From the NCBI RefSeq assembly GCF_008933165.1, contig NZ_WBVQ01000001.1, forward strand, positions 124,001 through 188,000: 64,000 nt of DNA. Direction: 5' to 3'. This document shows positions 1 through 30,372 of the stretch, piece by piece (the first letter of the stretch is position 1; the number at the start of each line of letters is the position of its first letter). The DNA is from Phaeocystidibacter marisrubri. GTDB lineage: Bacteria; Bacteroidota; Bacteroidia; Flavobacteriales; Schleiferiaceae. The notes under the pieces were generated by a model that was not told where the DNA came from, did no database searches, and was given only the letters and a program-made list of their open reading frames with translations. Position numbers and translations under genes: made by a program.

Positions 1-267
1 CCGGGGATGTCTACTCAGTTCCAATTCACTCCTTCATTGACCACTGCTGAAATGCGTCAAGACGCTGGCATCATTGAGAAGGTGAATCGCATCAACGCAA
101 TTCGCGCTGAAGCTGGAAAAGACGCCTACGAATTCGACTACGTATTGTTGTGTAATAAGATCTGTGGAGCTTCACACTACAACATGCGTTTCCCGATTAC
201 TGTAGTTACTCCTGAGGAGTACGACGAATGGATTTCAGAACAAACGACTTTCGCTGAAGCTCAATAA
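1..267 (+). CDS. ctaC: Cytochrome c oxidase subunit II, C-terminal part (5' end outside window)
   Basis: Only the C-terminal periplasmic CuA domain is present; the reading frame is open through base 1, so the gene starts upstream. This subunit accepts electrons from cytochrome c at the binuclear CuA centre and passes them to subunit I. The CuA signature is visible as CNKICGASHYNM (codons at about 151-186): two Cys, a His and a Met in the usual spacing. The residue between the cysteines that is normally Glu (its backbone binds CuA and its side chain helps hold Mg) is Lys here. Subunit I follows after 22 bp, so the two are surely co-transcribed. Identification is firm; the N-terminal membrane hairpin cannot be seen. 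Confidence 0.93.
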   Translation, partial: PGMSTQFQFTPSLTTAEMRQDAGIIEKVNRINAIRAEAGKDAYEFDYVLLCNKICGASHYNMRFPITVVTPEEYDEWISEQTTFAEAQ

Positions 268-23269: not shown

Positions 23270-24178
23270 ATGAAAGGTTCAATTTCTACATCTCAAACGG
23301 AGAGAATGCCAGCTGAAAGTGCAAGACTTTCTGATTATGCGATGCTATTAAAGTTTCGCCTAACTTCCAGTGTGGTGTTTTCTGCAAGCGCAGGTTACTT
23401 GCTAGCCGCTCCTTTTTTTGAGGTTTCTACCTTTTTAGCTCTTATCCTTGGCGGATTTTTGGTGGTGGGCGCATCCAATGCTTACAACCAAGTTTGGGAA
23501 CGTGATAGAGATGCATTGATGAACAGAACTAAGAATCGTCCGGTTGCCACCGGTCGCCTATCAGTTCTTGAAGCCCTCATCGTGAGTACAGTTGCGTTGA
23601 TTGGAGGAATTAGTCTCCTGTATTCCATCAATCCATTGAGCGCGATTTTTGGACTAGCTTCAGTAGTCTTGTATACTTTGGTATACACACCGATGAAAGC
23701 CAAAGGTCCGTGGGCCGTGTTTGTGGGCGCTTTTCCAGGTGCCATTCCATTTATGTTGGGATGGGTGGCTGCAACCAACGACTTCGATATTGAACCGGGA
23801 ATACTATTTCTCGTACAGTTCCTATGGCAGTTTCCGCATTTTTGGGCTATTGGTTGGGTTGCATACGACGATTATGCGAAGGCAGGGTACTATTTATTGC
23901 CCAATCGCAAGCCTGATGAAACGGCTTCAAACTTGATCATAGTCTACACCATGTTCATGATTGTGGCGAGTGTACTTCCCGTCTTTGGCTTTACTGGAAC
24001 TCTTGTGCTTTCTGATCCCGCCGCTTTGATTGTCCTTGTTCTCGGAGCATGGATGTTGAGATCAGCGATCTTACTTAAGAAGAATCCATCGAAAGAATAC
24101 GCTAGAAAACTCATGCTTACGAGTGTGGCTTATCTACCGCTTGTTCAAATTGTATATGTGATTGATAGATACATCTAA
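23270..24178 (+). CDS. ctaB: Protoheme IX farnesyltransferase (heme O synthase)
   Basis: A 302-residue UbiA-superfamily integral membrane enzyme that attaches farnesyl to heme b to make heme O, precursor of the heme a in the oxidase. The first Asp-rich motif NAYNQVWERDRDALMNRTKNRP and second loop YDDYAKAGYYLLP are present, with about eight or nine membrane helices. It heads the operon of the remaining oxidase subunits and assembly factors, overlapping the next gene by one base. It is distinct from the isoprenoid UbiA gene at 41 kb. Confidence 0.95.
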   Translation: MKGSISTSQTERMPAESARLSDYAMLLKFRLTSSVVFSASAGYLLAAPFFEVSTFLALILGGFLVVGASNAYNQVWERDRDALMNRTKNRPVATGRLSVLEALIVSTVALIGGISLLYSINPLSAIFGLASVVLYTLVYTPMKAKGPWAVFVGAFPGAIPFMLGWVAATNDFDIEPGILFLVQFLWQFPHFWAIGWVAYDDYAKAGYYLLPNRKPDETASNLIIVYTMFMIVASVLPVFGFTGTLVLSDPAALIVLVLGAWMLRSAILLKKNPSKEYARKLMLTSVAYLPLVQIVYVIDRYI

Positions 24179-24768
24179 TGGCAATGGCAGATTCAGCGCT
24201 AAAGAACGATAGAAGAAGAGCCGCTAAACCACTCTTGTGGATTGGCATAGCTTCCATGATTATGGCCTTTGCAGGTCTAACTTCTGGATACATCGTCTCG
24301 CGATCGTCGCTTATTGAAGCCAATACATGGTTGTATTTCGATATTCCGTCGGAATTCTACATATCAACAGCGATTATTATCGCGAGTAGTTTTGTGATGA
24401 CATTTGCTGTTCGATCTGCTCGAGCAGGATCGATGGGAAAGGCAAAATTGCTATTGTTGCTCACCTTGATCGCTGGACTTGTTTTTTCAGGTTTTCAGGT
24501 AATGGGGTGGAGTCAACTCACTCAAAATGAGATTCGTTTTACAGGAGAAGGTAGTAATGTGGCCGGCTCTTGGTTTTATATAATCACTTGGTTTCATCTC
24601 CTTCACGTAACGGGAGGGGTGATCACTTTGTTGGTTACTTGGGTCAAAGCGCAGATGGGGAAATACAGTCAGGATGACTACCTAGGAATTGAAATGGCTG
24701 CCATTTTCTGGCATTTCGTTGACATCTTATGGATTTTCCTATTCCTGTTTTTGGCAATTTTTCGTTAA
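24178..24768 (+). CDS. Cytochrome c oxidase subunit III (first copy, short form)
   Basis: A 196-residue protein with five predicted helices, corresponding to the five-helix, short form of subunit III. Family features include WLYFDIPSEFYISTAIII, FQVMGWSQL, and the terminal FWHFVDILWIFLFLFLAIF motif. Subunit III stabilises subunit I and proton uptake. It overlaps ctaB by one base and is followed after 28 bp by a second, longer subunit III gene, so the complex may contain two different subunits of this family. Confidence 0.92.
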   Translation: MAMADSALKNDRRRAAKPLLWIGIASMIMAFAGLTSGYIVSRSSLIEANTWLYFDIPSEFYISTAIIIASSFVMTFAVRSARAGSMGKAKLLLLLTLIAGLVFSGFQVMGWSQLTQNEIRFTGEGSNVAGSWFYIITWFHLLHVTGGVITLLVTWVKAQMGKYSQDDYLGIEMAAIFWHFVDILWIFLFLFLAIFR

Positions 24769-24796: not shown

Positions 24797-25744
24797 ATGG
24801 CGACGAATACGTCTGTTGAAGTGCCTCAAGAGAAACTATGGGGCGGAGGGAACCAGCCGATGGGCGCGAGCTACGGCAAAATGATGATGTGGTTCTTCTT
24901 GATTTCAGATGCCTTGACATTCTCAGGCTTCTTAACTGCATATGGCCTTATGCGCTTCAAGTATGAAGAAACATGGCCAGTTGCTGAAAACGTGTTTACC
25001 CACTTCCCGGGTATCGATGGTGATCAACCATTGCTCTACGTAGCATTGATGACCTTCATCCTCATCTTGTCTTCTGTAACCATGGTTATGGCAGTACACG
25101 AAGGGAAGCACAAGAAAAAGATTCGCGTTGGGCTTTGGATGTTGGCAACCATCGTTGGTGGTGCTATCTTCTTGGGATCACAGGCGTGGGAGTGGTATCA
25201 CTTCATTGTTGGTGATAACGGCGCAATCGAATTGTCTTCAAGAGAGATTATCCGTCCAGCGGATGCAGAGGGTAACTTCATTTCTCTTTCTGAACTGGTT
25301 CATCCAGGTGCGGAAGGTCATGGTCACCACGAGCACTTCACTATAGAGCAAGTTCGAACTTCTTTCGCAGAGGGAGATTTTACCCTTCGTTACCCTGGTA
25401 AAGGGGTGCGCGGCGAAGATGGCGGGTATACCCACACCGTTATTCCTCACGATGAAGCGATGAAGCTTTTGAATGAAGAGAATACCATGGTGGTGCAAGG
25501 TGCTAATATGACTCGTAACGAATACGGTCATGTTCAATTTGCAAACTTCTTCTTCTTCATTACCGGTTTCCACGGTTTCCACGTGTTCTCAGGTGTGGTG
25601 TTGAACTTCATCATTTTCTACAATGTGATGTTGGGTACATACGAGAGAAGAGGTCATTATGAAATGGTTGAGAAGGTTGGTTTGTACTGGCACTTTGTCG
25701 ATCTCGTTTGGGTATTCGTATTTACCTTCTTCTACCTAGTTTAA
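24797..25744 (+). CDS. ctaE: Cytochrome c oxidase subunit III (second copy, with long insertion)
   Basis: A 315-residue subunit III. Family motifs include MMMWFFLISDALTFSGF near the start, GFHGFHVFSGVVLNF, and the terminal YWHFVDLVWVFVFTFFYLV. An extramembrane insertion of about 110 residues (139-247) separates helices and contains a His-rich stretch (GHGHHEH, residues 174-180). I chose the ATG at 24797; longer in-frame sequence upstream overlaps the preceding gene and is not membrane-like for this family. It is flanked by the short subunit III and subunit IV. Confidence 0.93.
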   Translation: MATNTSVEVPQEKLWGGGNQPMGASYGKMMMWFFLISDALTFSGFLTAYGLMRFKYEETWPVAENVFTHFPGIDGDQPLLYVALMTFILILSSVTMVMAVHEGKHKKKIRVGLWMLATIVGGAIFLGSQAWEWYHFIVGDNGAIELSSREIIRPADAEGNFISLSELVHPGAEGHGHHEHFTIEQVRTSFAEGDFTLRYPGKGVRGEDGGYTHTVIPHDEAMKLLNEENTMVVQGANMTRNEYGHVQFANFFFFITGFHGFHVFSGVVLNFIIFYNVMLGTYERRGHYEMVEKVGLYWHFVDLVWVFVFTFFYLV

Positions 25745-25762: not shown

Positions 25763-26092
25763 ATGTCTGATAATCACGCACACGGAGGAGTTCGTAAACT
25801 CGTTATGATTTTCCTTCTACTACTCGTTGTAACGTTTGTAGAAGTAATGTTGGGTATCTACAAAAGCGATTTAGGAGCACTGTTGAATGAACCAGGAGGA
25901 TTCACTTCTTGGTTGAACATCATCTTCATCTTGCTTACCCTTGTAAAAGCCTATTATATTGTTGAGGTGTTCATGCACTTGGAAGGGGAACGGAAGAATT
26001 TGCGTCTTTCGATCTACTTGCCAGTACTCATTCTGATACCTTATTTGACCTTTATTCTACTTACTGAAGGTAGTCACTTGTTCGGTGTTTAA
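25763..26092 (+). CDS. Cytochrome c oxidase subunit IV (prokaryotic type)
   Basis: A 109-residue membrane protein with three helices and the characteristic central segment LVKAYYIVEVFMHLEGERKN seen in small bacterial subunit IV proteins. Its last base is the first base of the SCO gene start, giving a one-base overlap. It is small and not catalytic; it probably helps hold the complex together. Confidence 0.9.
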   Translation: MSDNHAHGGVRKLVMIFLLLLVVTFVEVMLGIYKSDLGALLNEPGGFTSWLNIIFILLTLVKAYYIVEVFMHLEGERKNLRLSIYLPVLILIPYLTFILLTEGSHLFGV

Positions 26093-26820
26093 TGGCTCAG
26101 CAAGAGAACAACAAAAGAAAAAAGGCAGTGTTAATTATCTTATTAGCACTGCCTGTTTCAGTTTATTTAGCCGCTGTTTTTATCAGTGGTGAAATAACTT
26201 TTCGCTCGTTGGACTTCGTTGGTCCAAAAGAAGTGACAGTAAATGATGAGGGGGAAGAGGAGACCGTTTACTACACGGTTCCCGATTTTTCTTTCACGGA
26301 TCAAGATGGGAATACGGTTACCCGTGAGTCCATGAAGGGAAAGATTTACGTGGCTTCATTCTTCTTCACGCGTTGTCCTACCATTTGCACACCTATGAAT
26401 TACCACCTCAAGAGTGTGTACGATAGGTTGTATGCCTTTAAGGATATTGCCTTCATCTCTCACACGATTGATCCCACTCACGATAGCATTGCCCAACTCA
26501 AGGCATATGCGCTTGAACGCGGCATTAACAACAGCGAGAAATGGCATTTCGTGACAGGGTCGAAGGAAGACATCTATTCAATGGCTAGTTCATATTACTT
26601 AGCTGCTAATGAAGATTCTACCATGACCAACCACGCTGGATTCTATCACAGTGGTCAGGTGGTGTTAGTGGATTGGGATGGACGTATTCGTTCGGGAATT
26701 GACGATGACGGAAACCCAGTTGGCGGTTACGATATTACAGAAGCAAAAGACATCGATCAATTGGTAGATGACTTACGCGTTCTTGCGAAAGAGTACAGGA
26801 AAGTGAAAATGCGAGGATGA
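26092..26820 (+). CDS. SCO-family copper chaperone for the CuA centre
   Basis: A 242-residue thioredoxin-fold protein anchored by an N-terminal helix (about 11-31). The copper motif CPTIC (Cys95, Cys99) and the conserved His in FYHSGQVVLVDWDG (His186) are present, which is the complete ligand set of SCO/SenC proteins. It delivers copper to, or reduces, the CuA site of subunit II. It overlaps the subunit IV gene by one base and the DUF420 gene by four. Confidence 0.93.
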   Translation: MAQQENNKRKKAVLIILLALPVSVYLAAVFISGEITFRSLDFVGPKEVTVNDEGEEETVYYTVPDFSFTDQDGNTVTRESMKGKIYVASFFFTRCPTICTPMNYHLKSVYDRLYAFKDIAFISHTIDPTHDSIAQLKAYALERGINNSEKWHFVTGSKEDIYSMASSYYLAANEDSTMTNHAGFYHSGQVVLVDWDGRIRSGIDDDGNPVGGYDITEAKDIDQLVDDLRVLAKEYRKVKMRG

Positions 26821-27350
26821 GAAAGCAAGACCAAATTTGGAAACCGATTATCATTGGATTGAGCATTGTCATTCCGGTTGCAGTAGCCGTGTTGTTTCTG
26901 CTTCCTGAGGATATGAAGCTGAATTTGGGCAACGCAAACCTTCGTAGCCTTCCATTTTTTCATGCAACTTTGAACGGTAGTACGGCTATTCTCCTACTTG
27001 TGGGGAAAGTTTTGATCAAAAAGAAGCAAGTGACTTGGCATAGATTCTCCATGCTGGCGGCCTTTGTCTTGTCTTCCGTTTTCTTGATTAGCTATGTTAT
27101 TTATCACAGTAGCACGCCTGATTCGAAGTATTTGGGGGATATGGGATACATCTATTATCCCATACTGATATCACACATTGTATTGTCCATGGCGGTTTTG
27201 CCTTTGGCGTTGTTTGCCATCTATCGCGGACTGACCAATGAGATTCAAAAGCACCGCAAAATAGTCAAGTGGACCTATCCAATTTGGCTCTATGTTGCGG
27301 TTACTGGAGTGTTGGTTTATGTATTTATGGCTCCGTACTATGTTCACTAA
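26817..27350 (+). CDS. DUF420 membrane protein (CtaM-like oxidase assembly factor)
   Basis: A 177-residue protein with four to five membrane helices, with the DUF420 pattern PFFHATLNGSTAILLLVG, WHRFSMLAAFVLSS, LISHIVLSMAVLPLALFA and HRKIVKWTYPIWLYVAVTGVLVYVF. Three intramembrane His (positions about 43, 63 and 121) look like metal or heme ligands. In Firmicutes the family member CtaM is needed for aa3-type oxidase maturation; that role fits its place here. Confidence 0.88.
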   Translation: MRKQDQIWKPIIIGLSIVIPVAVAVLFLLPEDMKLNLGNANLRSLPFFHATLNGSTAILLLVGKVLIKKKQVTWHRFSMLAAFVLSSVFLISYVIYHSSTPDSKYLGDMGYIYYPILISHIVLSMAVLPLALFAIYRGLTNEIQKHRKIVKWTYPIWLYVAVTGVLVYVFMAPYYVH

Positions 27351-27594
27351 GTCTATCAAGATCGTTTTCATCACATTGGCTTTGGTATTGATTGCTCAAT
27401 CCGCAGAAGCCCAGTGTGCCATGTGTAAGGCAACCGCAGAGAGCAATGCTCAGGGCGGCGGCGGAATTGCAAGTGGCCTCAATGAAGGAATCCTTTGGTT
27501 GATGTTCTTCCCTTATATGCTCTTGGGTGGAGTAGCCTATTTGTGGTATCGTCACAATAAAAAGACGAAAAACCAGGTTGCTAATGAGAACTAA
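27340..27594 (+). CDS. 84-residue CAMC membrane protein of the oxidase operon
   Basis: A small protein starting at ATG 27340, inside the end of the DUF420 gene. It has a signal peptide (residues 1 to about 24, ending AEAQ), then immediately QCAMCKATAESNAQ, a Gly-rich turn, one membrane helix (about 49-68, ILWLMFFPYMLLGGVAYLW) and a short basic tail. The CxxC next to the predicted cleavage site would face the periplasm. I do not know a characterised family; similar proteins with CAMC(R/K)A follow DUF420 in other Bacteroidota from memory. A role in copper or heme delivery is inference from the motif and operon. Confidence 0.8.
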   Translation: MFTKSIKIVFITLALVLIAQSAEAQCAMCKATAESNAQGGGGIASGLNEGILWLMFFPYMLLGGVAYLWYRHNKKTKNQVANEN

Positions 27595-27671: not shown

Positions 27672-29093
27672 ATGAGAAAATCTGGATATCTCTTACTATC
27701 TATTTTTCTAAGCTATTCTTCATTTGCTCAGGATAAAAAAGCCTGGACCTTAGAGGAGTGTATTCATTATGCACTGGAGAATAACATCGACGTTAGGCAA
27801 CAAGGCCAGAACGTCCAGATGGCAGATTACAATCGCGATGCGAATTCAGCCAACTTTTTTCCTAATCTGACCTTCTCGAGTGGGTACAACTGGAACTTCG
27901 GTTACAATATTGACCCCGTAACGAACTTGCCATCTTCTGCTAACCGTCAAACTGGGAACTTCAGTTTGAGTTCACAGTGGGTTCTCTTTGATGGATTGGC
28001 CAATGTGAATCAACTTCGTCAGGGACGTATTGATTATCTAGCGGCAACGTATCAGTTGGAGTCGATAAAGAATGACATCACAGTCAACATTTCTTCTACT
28101 TATTTACAGATACTGATGAATAAGGAGATTGCGGCTGTAGCGCTAGAGCAGAAGAATACGAGTGCCCTAATGCTCGAAAGCTCGAAAGCGCAATACGATG
28201 CTGGATCTATTGCCTACGGCGATTATCTTCAGGCAGAGTCGCAATTAGCTTCTGATGAACAGCGATTAATTCAGGCGCAGAACAATGTAACCTTGAGTAT
28301 TCTCTCATTAGCGCAACTTCTACAATTGGAAGATCCTACCTCCTTTGACGTGGTATCGCCAGAGTTGGACTTGCCTGCAGGTTCTGTTCTTGCTCGAACT
28401 CCCACGGATATCTACACTACAGCGCGAGAGGTACAACCCATTGTGAAAGCGAGTGAGCTGAATATTCAAAGTGCTCAGTACTCCTTGTATCAGTCTCAAT
28501 CTTCTTATTGGCCTACCATCAGTTTACAAGCGGCGATCAGCACGAACTATTCGAATAGAATTTTCGCCTATGAAGGAGTTTCGGATCAAACCATTCCCAT
28601 TGGTTTTTGGAATAACTCGGGTTCAGCGGTTCCGGTTTATACAACCACGAGCGTTCCGTACGGACGTTACAGCAAGAATTTTGGCACTCAGTTTTCAGAC
28701 AACTTGAACGAGTATGTCGGTGTGAACTTGGTGTGGCCAATTTTCTCTCGATTCCAGATTCGAAACCGCGTTCGTCAACAGGAGTTTGCTGTTTCTCAAG
28801 CGGAACTCGAATTGGATAGAGTAGAGAACCAGCTTCGCCAAACGATACAAAAGGCTCACGCAGATGCACAAGCTTCACTAAAGAGTTACACGGCTTCTTC
28901 CAAAGCTGCCGAAGCGGCAGAGGAAAGTTTGGATTACGCTCGTATTCGAAGAGAAGAGGGGGCGATTTCTCAATATGAGTATGAATCAGCTCGAAACAAC
29001 TATCTCGCTGCTAAATCGCAACAGCTTCAATCCAAGTACGATTACATTTTTAAGGTTCGCGTGCTCGAATTCTACCTGACCAACCAGCTTTAA
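27672..29093 (+). CDS. TolC-family outer membrane efflux protein
   Basis: A 473-residue protein with signal peptide (MRKSGYLLLSIFLSYSSFAQ) followed by the two OEP repeats: WTLEECIHYALENNIDVRQQ begins the first, and long coiled-coil helices (SYLQILMNKEI..., QAHADAQASLKSYTASS...) form the periplasmic tunnel. It makes the outer membrane channel of a tripartite pump or type I exporter. It is two bases from the membrane-fusion protein gene; no inner membrane pump follows. Confidence 0.92.
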   Translation: MRKSGYLLLSIFLSYSSFAQDKKAWTLEECIHYALENNIDVRQQGQNVQMADYNRDANSANFFPNLTFSSGYNWNFGYNIDPVTNLPSSANRQTGNFSLSSQWVLFDGLANVNQLRQGRIDYLAATYQLESIKNDITVNISSTYLQILMNKEIAAVALEQKNTSALMLESSKAQYDAGSIAYGDYLQAESQLASDEQRLIQAQNNVTLSILSLAQLLQLEDPTSFDVVSPELDLPAGSVLARTPTDIYTTAREVQPIVKASELNIQSAQYSLYQSQSSYWPTISLQAAISTNYSNRIFAYEGVSDQTIPIGFWNNSGSAVPVYTTTSVPYGRYSKNFGTQFSDNLNEYVGVNLVWPIFSRFQIRNRVRQQEFAVSQAELELDRVENQLRQTIQKAHADAQASLKSYTASSKAAEAAEESLDYARIRREEGAISQYEYESARNNYLAAKSQQLQSKYDYIFKVRVLEFYLTNQL

Positions 29094-29094
29094 T

Positions 29095-30372
29095 ATGAAA
29101 AATCGAAAATCGCTTTTTATAGTTCTAGGTATTGTCCTAGTAGTTGTACTGCTCGTTGTCGCTAGAGTTTCTGGTGCTTTTGGAGAACCAGAAGGACTCG
29201 AAGTAGAAGTGGGTGTGGTCACTAAACGCACCCTTGTAGAGACTGCCAGTGCAAGTGGGAAGATTCAACCCGAAGTGGAGGTGAAATTGTCGCCAGAAGT
29301 AAGTGGTGAGATCATTGCCTTGCCTGTTGTAGAGGGCCAGTACGTGGAGGCTGGACAGTTATTGGTGAGCATCAATCCAGATTTATACCGAGCTGCTGTT
29401 AACCGTACTCAAGCTTCTGTGAATGCTTCGCGTTCGGCCTTGGCACAAGCCAAAGCTCAATTCGTGGAAGCGGAAAAGAGCTATCGCAGAAATGAGAATC
29501 TCTTCAAGCAAAATGTAATTTCTCAAGCGGAATGGGATGCGGCTCAACGAGCTTATAGCGTAAGTGAATTGTCGGTAGAATCTGCTGAATATCAATTACA
29601 AAGTGCTCAAGCTACACTGAGAGAAGCTCAAGATAACTTGAAGAGAACCACCATCACAGCTCCAGTTTCAGGTACCATCTCCGCGCTCAATGTTGAGTTA
29701 GGGGAAAGGGTAGTGGGTACGGCGCAAATGGCCGGTACAGAGTTACTACGCATTGCCAATCTGAATGACATGGAGGTACTGGTGGAGGTCAATGAGAACG
29801 ACATCGTAAAGGTGGCGTTGAATGATACTGCCGATATCGAAGTGGATGCCTATCTAGGTGAGAAGTACTTGGGTGTAGTTACAGAAATTGCCAATAGCGC
29901 GAATACCAATGGAACATCCGCGGATCAAGTAACTAACTTTGAAGTAAAGGTTCGCATTTTGAGAAGCAGCTATGCTCCGGATTCAGAAGAGCAGCCGTTT
30001 AGACCGGGTATGACCGCTTCTGTGGATATTCGAACCAACCGTAGAGAGGGTATTTTGACGGTTCCAATTGAAGCTGTAACCGTTCGTGAGGATACTTCAT
30101 CAACGGGAAGTAGACCCAAGTTTAGCTCTCAGAATGAAACCGAAGAAAAGGAAGAGTTTGAGGTAGTATTTGCCCCTGACAATGGAAAGGCGAAGATCAT
30201 TGTAGTGAAAACCGGAATTCAAGATGAGCGTTTTATCGAAATTCTTGAAGGTTTGTCGGACGGACAAGAGATAATTGTCGGTTCGTATGAGGCGGTGGCG
30301 AAAAAACTCAATGCTGGTGATGCCATCGTGTCCCAATCTTCGGGTGGATCAAAGGATGAAGGAGAAAAGTAG
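29095..30372 (+). CDS. Periplasmic adaptor (membrane fusion) protein of an efflux system
   Basis: A 425-residue HlyD/MacA-like protein: N-terminal membrane anchor (about 5-27), lipoyl halves with IALPVVEGQYVEAGQLLVSI and ITAPVSGTISALNVELGERV, a coiled-coil hairpin (about 100-180, NASRSALAQAKAQFVEAEKSY), a beta-barrel domain and a C-terminal region ending in low-complexity Gly/Ser/Lys. Hairpin length and overall size suit a MacA-type ABC pump or an RND pump. It is co-transcribed with the TolC gene; the pump must be encoded elsewhere. Confidence 0.9.
   Translation: MKNRKSLFIVLGIVLVVVLLVVARVSGAFGEPEGLEVEVGVVTKRTLVETASASGKIQPEVEVKLSPEVSGEIIALPVVEGQYVEAGQLLVSINPDLYRAAVNRTQASVNASRSALAQAKAQFVEAEKSYRRNENLFKQNVISQAEWDAAQRAYSVSELSVESAEYQLQSAQATLREAQDNLKRTTITAPVSGTISALNVELGERVVGTAQMAGTELLRIANLNDMEVLVEVNENDIVKVALNDTADIEVDAYLGEKYLGVVTEIANSANTNGTSADQVTNFEVKVRILRSSYAPDSEEQPFRPGMTASVDIRTNRREGILTVPIEAVTVREDTSSTGSRPKFSSQNETEEKEEFEVVFAPDNGKAKIIVVKTGIQDERFIEILEGLSDGQEIIVGSYEAVAKKLNAGDAIVSQSSGGSKDEGEK

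Follow-up and report, generated by a model that had tools for sequence, protein, structure and literature searches.

The locus

The window analysed here is a stretch of 64,000 nucleotides from Phaeocystidibacter marisrubri (contig NZ_WBVQ01000001.1), and all positions refer to it. A run of oxidase genes, ctaB-COX3-COX3-COX4-sco-ctaM (DUF420), ends in a gene for an 84-residue protein carrying the motif CAMC. The order of the upstream genes, given in an initial annotation made from the letters alone, is borne out by Pfam and TIGR profile matches. Neighbouring genes overlap or are separated by gaps of at most 28 bp, provided that the second COX3 gene begins at the ATG at 24797, and the start codon of the CAMC gene lies 11 bp within the DUF420 open reading frame. 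The features are as follows.

1..267, forward strand: 3' end of COX2; CuA loop C-N-K-I-C-G-A-S-H-Y-N-M, read on genome stretch L298
290..2083, forward strand: COX1, in an act-COX2-COX1 cluster of its own at the window's left edge, about 21 kb upstream
23270..24178, forward strand: ctaB, heme o synthase (TIGR01473, E 3.7e-74)
24178..24768, forward strand: cytochrome oxidase subunit III, first copy (PF00510, E 7.8e-18)
24797..25744, forward strand: cytochrome oxidase subunit III, second copy (PF00510, E 4.2e-12)
25763..26092, forward strand: cytochrome oxidase subunit IV, COX4_pro (PF03626, E 4.8e-15)
26092..26820, forward strand: sco, short type, with CxxxC and without a C-terminal helix (PF02630, SCO1-SenC, E 2.7e-27)
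26817..27350, forward strand: ctaM, DUF420 (PF04238, E 4e-42)
27340..27594, forward strand: gene for the 84-residue CAMC protein, by translation; signal peptide, QCAMC, one membrane helix
27340..27411, forward strand: predicted signal peptide, codons 1-24, with a probable cut between AEA and Q
27415..27426, forward strand: codons of C26-A-M-C29 (CxxC)
27484..27552, forward strand: membrane helix, about residues 49-71 (limits approximate), with conserved G50-I51 and P58
27583..27606, forward strand: terminator-like hairpin at the operon end, over the CAMC stop codon, a consensus match only

Terminator-like sites numbered 11, against 4.3 in shuffles. The next gene, for an outer membrane efflux protein, starts 77 bp downstream of the CAMC gene. 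TolC-like and HlyD-like efflux genes occupy 27672-30372, after the oxidase operon, and TolC-like genes also come after the oxidase operon in many relatives.

The CAMC protein

The frame at 27340-27594 on the forward strand is a real open reading frame, with the direct translation MFTKSIKIVFITLALVLIAQSAEAQCAMCKATAESN...GLNEGILWLMFFPYMLLGGVAYLWYRHNKK..., and a protein search found it in single copy in the source genome. From the N- to the C-terminus the protein consists of a hydrophobic signal sequence ending in AEA, the sequence Q-C-A-M-C, a short polar stretch, a membrane helix and a basic tail. Its AlphaFold2 model contains solely two helices (residues 4-38 and 43-82; mean pLDDT 81.5), and the signal peptide and membrane helix were read off the sequence together with this model. 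The original description of an 84-residue protein with a signal peptide and one helix is upheld by the translation, the relatives and the model.

C26, C29 and P58 are invariant across 50 diverse relatives, and the helix conserves the motifs G-L-N-x-G-I and P-Y. Conservation of the CxxC, on which the initial annotation had staked its reading, holds throughout: none of the 217 profile matches (E<=1e-3, fetched DNA) lacks it. The methionine of CAMC varies among relatives (CSIC, CSVC, CAVC), which weakens the case for Met as a copper ligand. Cleavage after AEA would leave a mature protein beginning Q-C-A-M-C, anchored by one helix with its N-terminus outside; from this topology the two thiols would sit at the periplasmic membrane surface.

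Neither Pfam nor NCBIfam gave a match to the window protein at E<=1. Its relatives show weak and scattered matches: the best Pfam E-value among 50 of them is 8.5e-4, any one family matching at most 5 of the 50, and the best NCBIfam value is 0.0028, any one family matching at most 3 of the 50 (the NCBIfam searches covered the CAMC type). Among solved chains of known residues none matches (best E 0.49), and searches of the open PMC subset turned up no paper on the protein. The protein is thus undescribed, as had been supposed, in that no curated family fits, and it represents a new protein family in a process of a known kind. The family combines a signal peptide, a CxxC, a single proline-bearing helix and linkage to the oxidase; linkage to ctaM has been lost in some lineages.

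Comparison with known families sets it apart from each. A thioredoxin fold of the TlpA/ResA kind is not indicated by Pfam or by the two-helix model, a weak Thioredoxin_4 match (E 0.032) occurring in one of the 50 relatives. The Sco domain (PF02630) gives no Pfam match to the window protein, which has the spacing CxxC and is too short to hold that domain; Cox11/CtaG (PF04442) and Caa3_CtaG (PF09678) do not match it either. In the CAMC relatives listed, the CxxC is followed by K, R, T, S, Q or A and never by the H of a c-type cytochrome CXXCH. The window protein also has no lipobox, since Gln precedes Cys in AEAQ-C. CcmH has a CxxC near its mature N-terminus and a membrane helix; unlike CcmH, the CAMC protein has no Pfam match, and its operon in the window contains no cytochrome c maturation genes. 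TlpA of Bradyrhizobium, described in PMC6696091 as a membrane-anchored periplasmic thioredoxin for ScoI and CoxB, resembles the CAMC protein as interpreted below in being a membrane-anchored periplasmic thiol protein at the proposed step, whereas the CAMC protein has no thioredoxin fold in its model, a predicted mature length of 60 residues and its CxxC at the N-terminus. COA6 is described as a mitochondrial disulfide reductase for SCO1, SCO2 and COX2 (PMC8773535); like the CAMC protein as interpreted below, it is small, has cysteines and serves CuA assembly specifically. In contrast to its CHCH arrangement (CX9C-CX9-10C; twin CX9C or CX10C), the window protein has two cysteines only, and a membrane helix. 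CtaM, described as having four or five helices (PMC9145763), is encoded by the neighbouring gene and belongs to the same oxidase set, but is of a different family.

Distribution and gene neighbourhood

A single-sequence search matched 124 of 196 genomes of the order at E<=0.01, with G041 and G182 weak. Across the phylum, a 27-row profile at the same threshold identified the protein in 90 of 395 sampled genomes, after the original 94 matches had been reduced by removal of four weak ones (G420, G403, G552 and G269; E 0.004-0.009), three of which contain internal stop codons. Of these 395 genomes, 187 have DUF420 and 228 have heme A synthase. All 90 carriers also have DUF420. Within the class of the window organism the protein occurs in 85 of 85 DUF420-positive genomes and in none of the 13 DUF420-negative ones, while in other classes it occurs in 5 of 102 DUF420-positive genomes; the link with ctaM is therefore near absolute within the class and loose outside it, and 97 of the 187 ctaM genomes do not have the CAMC type. 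The 13 negative genomes of the class also have no heme A synthase, and COX2 is absent from the seven of them in which it was sought. No CAMC-type match was found in six genomes examined that have heme A synthase (CtaA) and no DUF420, one of which (G221) has an A5 protein of the kind described below. The presence of the CAMC protein tracks ctaM and the heme A oxidase, in agreement with the association first suggested from the operon, and its linkage to an oxidase lineage is strong.

Among the best 80 of 551 candidates, the named carriers include Phaeocystidibacter, Owenweeksia, Pedobacter, Pontibacter, Adhaeribacter, Rufibacter and Flammeovirga. L153, a contig with the title Bifidobacterium breve, has an oxidase operon of Bacteroidota type; as its COX1 groups beside Cytophagales, it is probably a mislabelled metagenome bin. 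The window protein gave no match on viral contigs, and neither it nor one A5 protein gave a match on plasmids.

The suggestion in the initial annotation that similar proteins follow DUF420 in other Bacteroidota proved correct: the CAMC gene lies directly after ctaM on the same strand in 52 of 59 distinct genomes, a fraction that may be biased upward because it is taken from the best-scoring 3-kb loci only. A stricter automatic count gave 24/30, 24/30 and 64/80 named loci (best 80 of 551). Elsewhere the gene comes after sco with ctaM at another site (L030, L045), or, in other classes, after COX4 or COX3 and before sco (L089, L091), and in G014, G197, G202, G211 and G433 it is far from ctaM. Fusion to a neighbouring gene was considered for two long open frames and is supported by neither: that of G091 (L032) is a lone 83-residue frame, and that of G344 (L069) an open frame overlapping ctaM.

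Divergent relatives

Neighbourhoods were fetched for 20 genomes of other classes that have DUF420 and no CAMC type, one of them a wrong stretch, and a protein of the same build was seen in 3 of the 20. Profiles built from these three proteins and their matches define two types, A4 and A5. The A4 type has the motif ACP-x-C, and most A5 proteins have ACP-x-C-[YF]-G. The A4 gene is preceded by ctaM, sco or COX4 and followed by actA. Wherever the stretch extends far enough, the gene order around A5 is COX1-COX3-COX4-[A5]-COX2-ctaA-ctaB, and COX2 follows the A5 gene directly in all seven genomes having an A5. Pfam matches to the A4 and A5 proteins are weak (best 0.011 and 0.016). Some A4 relatives show LLAC- or VTAC-like sites, so a lipoprotein class is possible for them.

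Comparison of the CAMC, A4 and A5 profiles by hhalign gave 95.1, 95.7 and 96.7%, from alignments of 4 rows (A4) and 6 rows (A5). Signal-peptide and helix composition may raise these scores, though the long-Sco tail described below scored far lower when compared in the same way. In a whole-genome search of 80 genomes, the A4 profile gave 20 matches at E<=0.01, of which 16 lie beyond its 4 seeds. Every one of the 20 is an oxidase-linked CxxC protein; three are A5 proteins, and the profile recovers 5 of the 8 CAMC genomes in that set. Its sole match in the whole source genome is the window protein (E 0.001). By profile homology the three types can be assigned to one family. An A4 or A5 protein is present in 18 of the 56 genomes of the set that have DUF420 and no CAMC type, a CxxC relative not being found in the other 38; both types are absent at E<=0.01 from 16 DUF420-negative control genomes.

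Long Sco and the CuA loop

Most DUF420-positive genomes in which no CxxC relative was found carry a long Sco, of about 270-320 residues in the loci read, with a C-terminal tail bearing an invariant Cys and a membrane helix. Its gene usually lies just before COX2, or before COX1 in G279. The long Sco and the CxxC protein have near-exclusive genomic distributions, and the long Sco alone has a Sco domain (PF02630). A profile of its tail, run on 80 genomes, matched 33 at E<=0.01, of which two weak ones were left out of the counts: the CAMC genome G232 (E 0.004) and the A5 genome G458 (E 0.006). On these counts the tail was found in 0 of 31 CAMC, 0 of 12 A4 and 3 of 6 A5 genomes (the A5 cases on other contigs), in 22 of the 24 genomes tested among the 38 that have DUF420 and no detected CxxC relative, and in 6 of 6 genomes with heme A synthase and no DUF420. 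In G346 and G523, both DUF420-positive, neither a CxxC relative nor a long Sco was found, and their Caa3_CtaG matches are weak and below the cut-off. Homology between the CxxC protein and the long-Sco tail was considered and is unsupported, the hhalign comparison giving 56% and 23%.

The two modules are paired with different CuA loops. Near a CxxC protein the loop reads C-x-x-[LIV]-C-G-x-x-H-[YF], and near a long Sco C-x-x-Y-C-G-x-x-H-[SAH]. Counting distinct COX2 proteins within 12 kb, the [LIV]CGxxH[YF] loop was found 42 times with a CxxC protein and never with a long Sco, and the YCGxxH[SAH] loop 26 times with a long Sco and never with a CxxC protein. The fetched DNA gave 75 distinct COX2 proteins in all, and the remaining 7 have neither module in reach: four of the LIV type from CAMC genomes (G000, G264, G415, G197), one of the LIV type from G523, one of the Y type from G326, whose long Sco is encoded at another site, and the COX2 of the second oxidase of G212. 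G221 (L296) has two oxidase clusters, one with an A5 and one with a long Sco, each with the matching loop type; it has no DUF420 match, yet its A5 protein is encoded beside COX2.

In a COX1 tree a single branch (support 78/95) sets the long-Sco oxidases apart from the rest, so the counts of 42 and 26 are not independent, and the split may reflect one event of co-inheritance. The CAMC group has support of 82/100 and the A4 and A5 groups each 100/100, in a tree for which the program noted long branches. Three changes account for all four labels, and only one of them falls between the CxxC and long-Sco modules; a history of many independent swaps between the two is accordingly rejected. What the loop pairing shows is that the small CxxC protein lies on one side of the tree of oxidases; replacement of one module by the other does not follow from it alone.

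A candidate role in copper insertion

The route by which copper reaches cytochrome oxidase is known chiefly from a few model bacteria. The cysteines of CuA and of Sco lie in an oxidising compartment and need to be reduced before copper can enter, a need described as established at Sco and COX2 for TlpA and COA6 (PMC8773535, PMC6696091). Copper transfer by human Sco1 is reported to depend on the sequence of the CuA loop (PMC6696091). Since an unnamed family with two exposed cysteines accompanies one oxidase lineage, it is likely to be a missing part of copper insertion into the oxidase. The preferred reading, tentative and a little short of an even chance, is that the CAMC protein is an assembly factor of one cytochrome c oxidase lineage linked to alternative complex III (ACIII), a dithiol tethered to the membrane and serving to reduce the CuA cysteines of COX2, to load them with Cu(I), or both. 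It would keep this cysteine pair of subunit II in reduced form, hand it Cu(I), or do both, and would work beside the short Sco and CtaM of its operon. Counting against a role at CuA, the usual neighbour in the window's branch is ctaM and not COX2, half of the A5 genomes tested have a long Sco as well, and G523 has a loop of the LIV type with neither module. Conserved, unnamed, genetically linked to the oxidase and tied to a specific type of CuA loop, the CxxC protein is a directly testable candidate. Flavobacterium johnsoniae UW101 has gene-deletion tools, and ACIII has been predicted to be dispensable there owing to a bd oxidase (PMC8552683).

The main rival, because CtaM of B. subtilis has been proposed as a copper exporter feeding Sco (PMC13344008), is that the CAMC protein partners CtaM rather than COX2, taking copper that CtaM exports or handles and either serving CuB or loading Sco. 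The CAMC gene adjoins ctaM, often overlapping it, every one of the 90 carriers has ctaM, and several A4-type genes also come after ctaM. Furthermore, among 63 genomes (31 with CAMC and 32 with DUF420 and no CAMC), Cox11 matches occur in 2 (G212 and G261, both also with CAMC) and Caa3_CtaG exceeds the cut-off in 1, so that CuB would need another factor, a point in favour of CtaM as partner. Almost all of these genomes are thus without the known or tentative CuB factors; a distribution of CAMC complementary to Cox11 or Caa3_CtaG was rejected, both being rare with or without it. Partnership with CtaM nevertheless appears somewhat unlikely, given that at least 22 of the 97 ctaM genomes without the CAMC type have a long Sco, and that G221 pairs an A5 with COX2 where DUF420 is not detected.

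One-helix supernumerary subunits are common in oxidases, and the CAMC protein could be one of them, a small structural component of either the oxidase or the supercomplex that the oxidase forms with alternative complex III, with a CxxC that makes a stabilising disulfide. The conserved proline and glycines of the helix and the strict linkage to the lineage would suit such a subunit. Nevertheless the idea is improbable, since none of the solved chains matches by sequence, the gene stands away from ctaM in the five genomes named above, and the extreme N-terminus would be a poor site for a structural disulfide. A part in heme supply, as reductant for the cysteines of heme A synthase or in another heme step, is less probable still and would come as a surprise, even though ctaB opens the operon, ctaA and ctaB adjoin in A5 operons and cysteine pairs are described in CtaA (PMC8239418). 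The six genomes with CtaA and no DUF420 gave no CAMC match, G221 having an A5, and the variation that accompanies the CAMC protein is in the CuA loop. The initial annotation had left copper and heme handling side by side; the evidence leans to the CuA/COX2 branch over heme.

Loci with a cysteine-less Sco

The fetched DNA contains 142 distinct CAMC-type proteins, and for 116 of them the stretch also shows a recognised Sco. For 7 of these 116 proteins (loci L056, L077, L083, L120 with L128, L122, L150, L162) no Sco in the stretch has CxxxC, while the CxxC of the small protein is retained. The eight Sco frames concerned comprise seven with no Cys and one with a single Cys, and the His is lost in seven of the eight. 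COX2 keeps its CuA ligands in the five loci where it was read (L120, L122, L128, L150, L162). Unless a further Sco is encoded elsewhere, a protein that only reduces Sco would find no substrate at these loci; this favours COX2 itself as the target. Where Sco has no copper ligands (Pedobacter and relatives, G268, G318, G365), the QCxMC peptide itself might carry copper to CuA as a minimal, domainless metallochaperone independent of Sco. CuA would then be loaded by either of two alternative modules, this peptide or the long Sco with its Cys-plus-helix tail, which travel with two CuA-loop lineages; this bolder proposal is unlikely. Genomes with a cysteine-less operon Sco provide a natural experiment on the need for Sco thiols. 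Seven further loci (L038, L040, L041, L042, L046, L053, L098) have two sco genes per operon, one with CxxxC and one without, and the copy lacking the motif may be a partner without redox activity.
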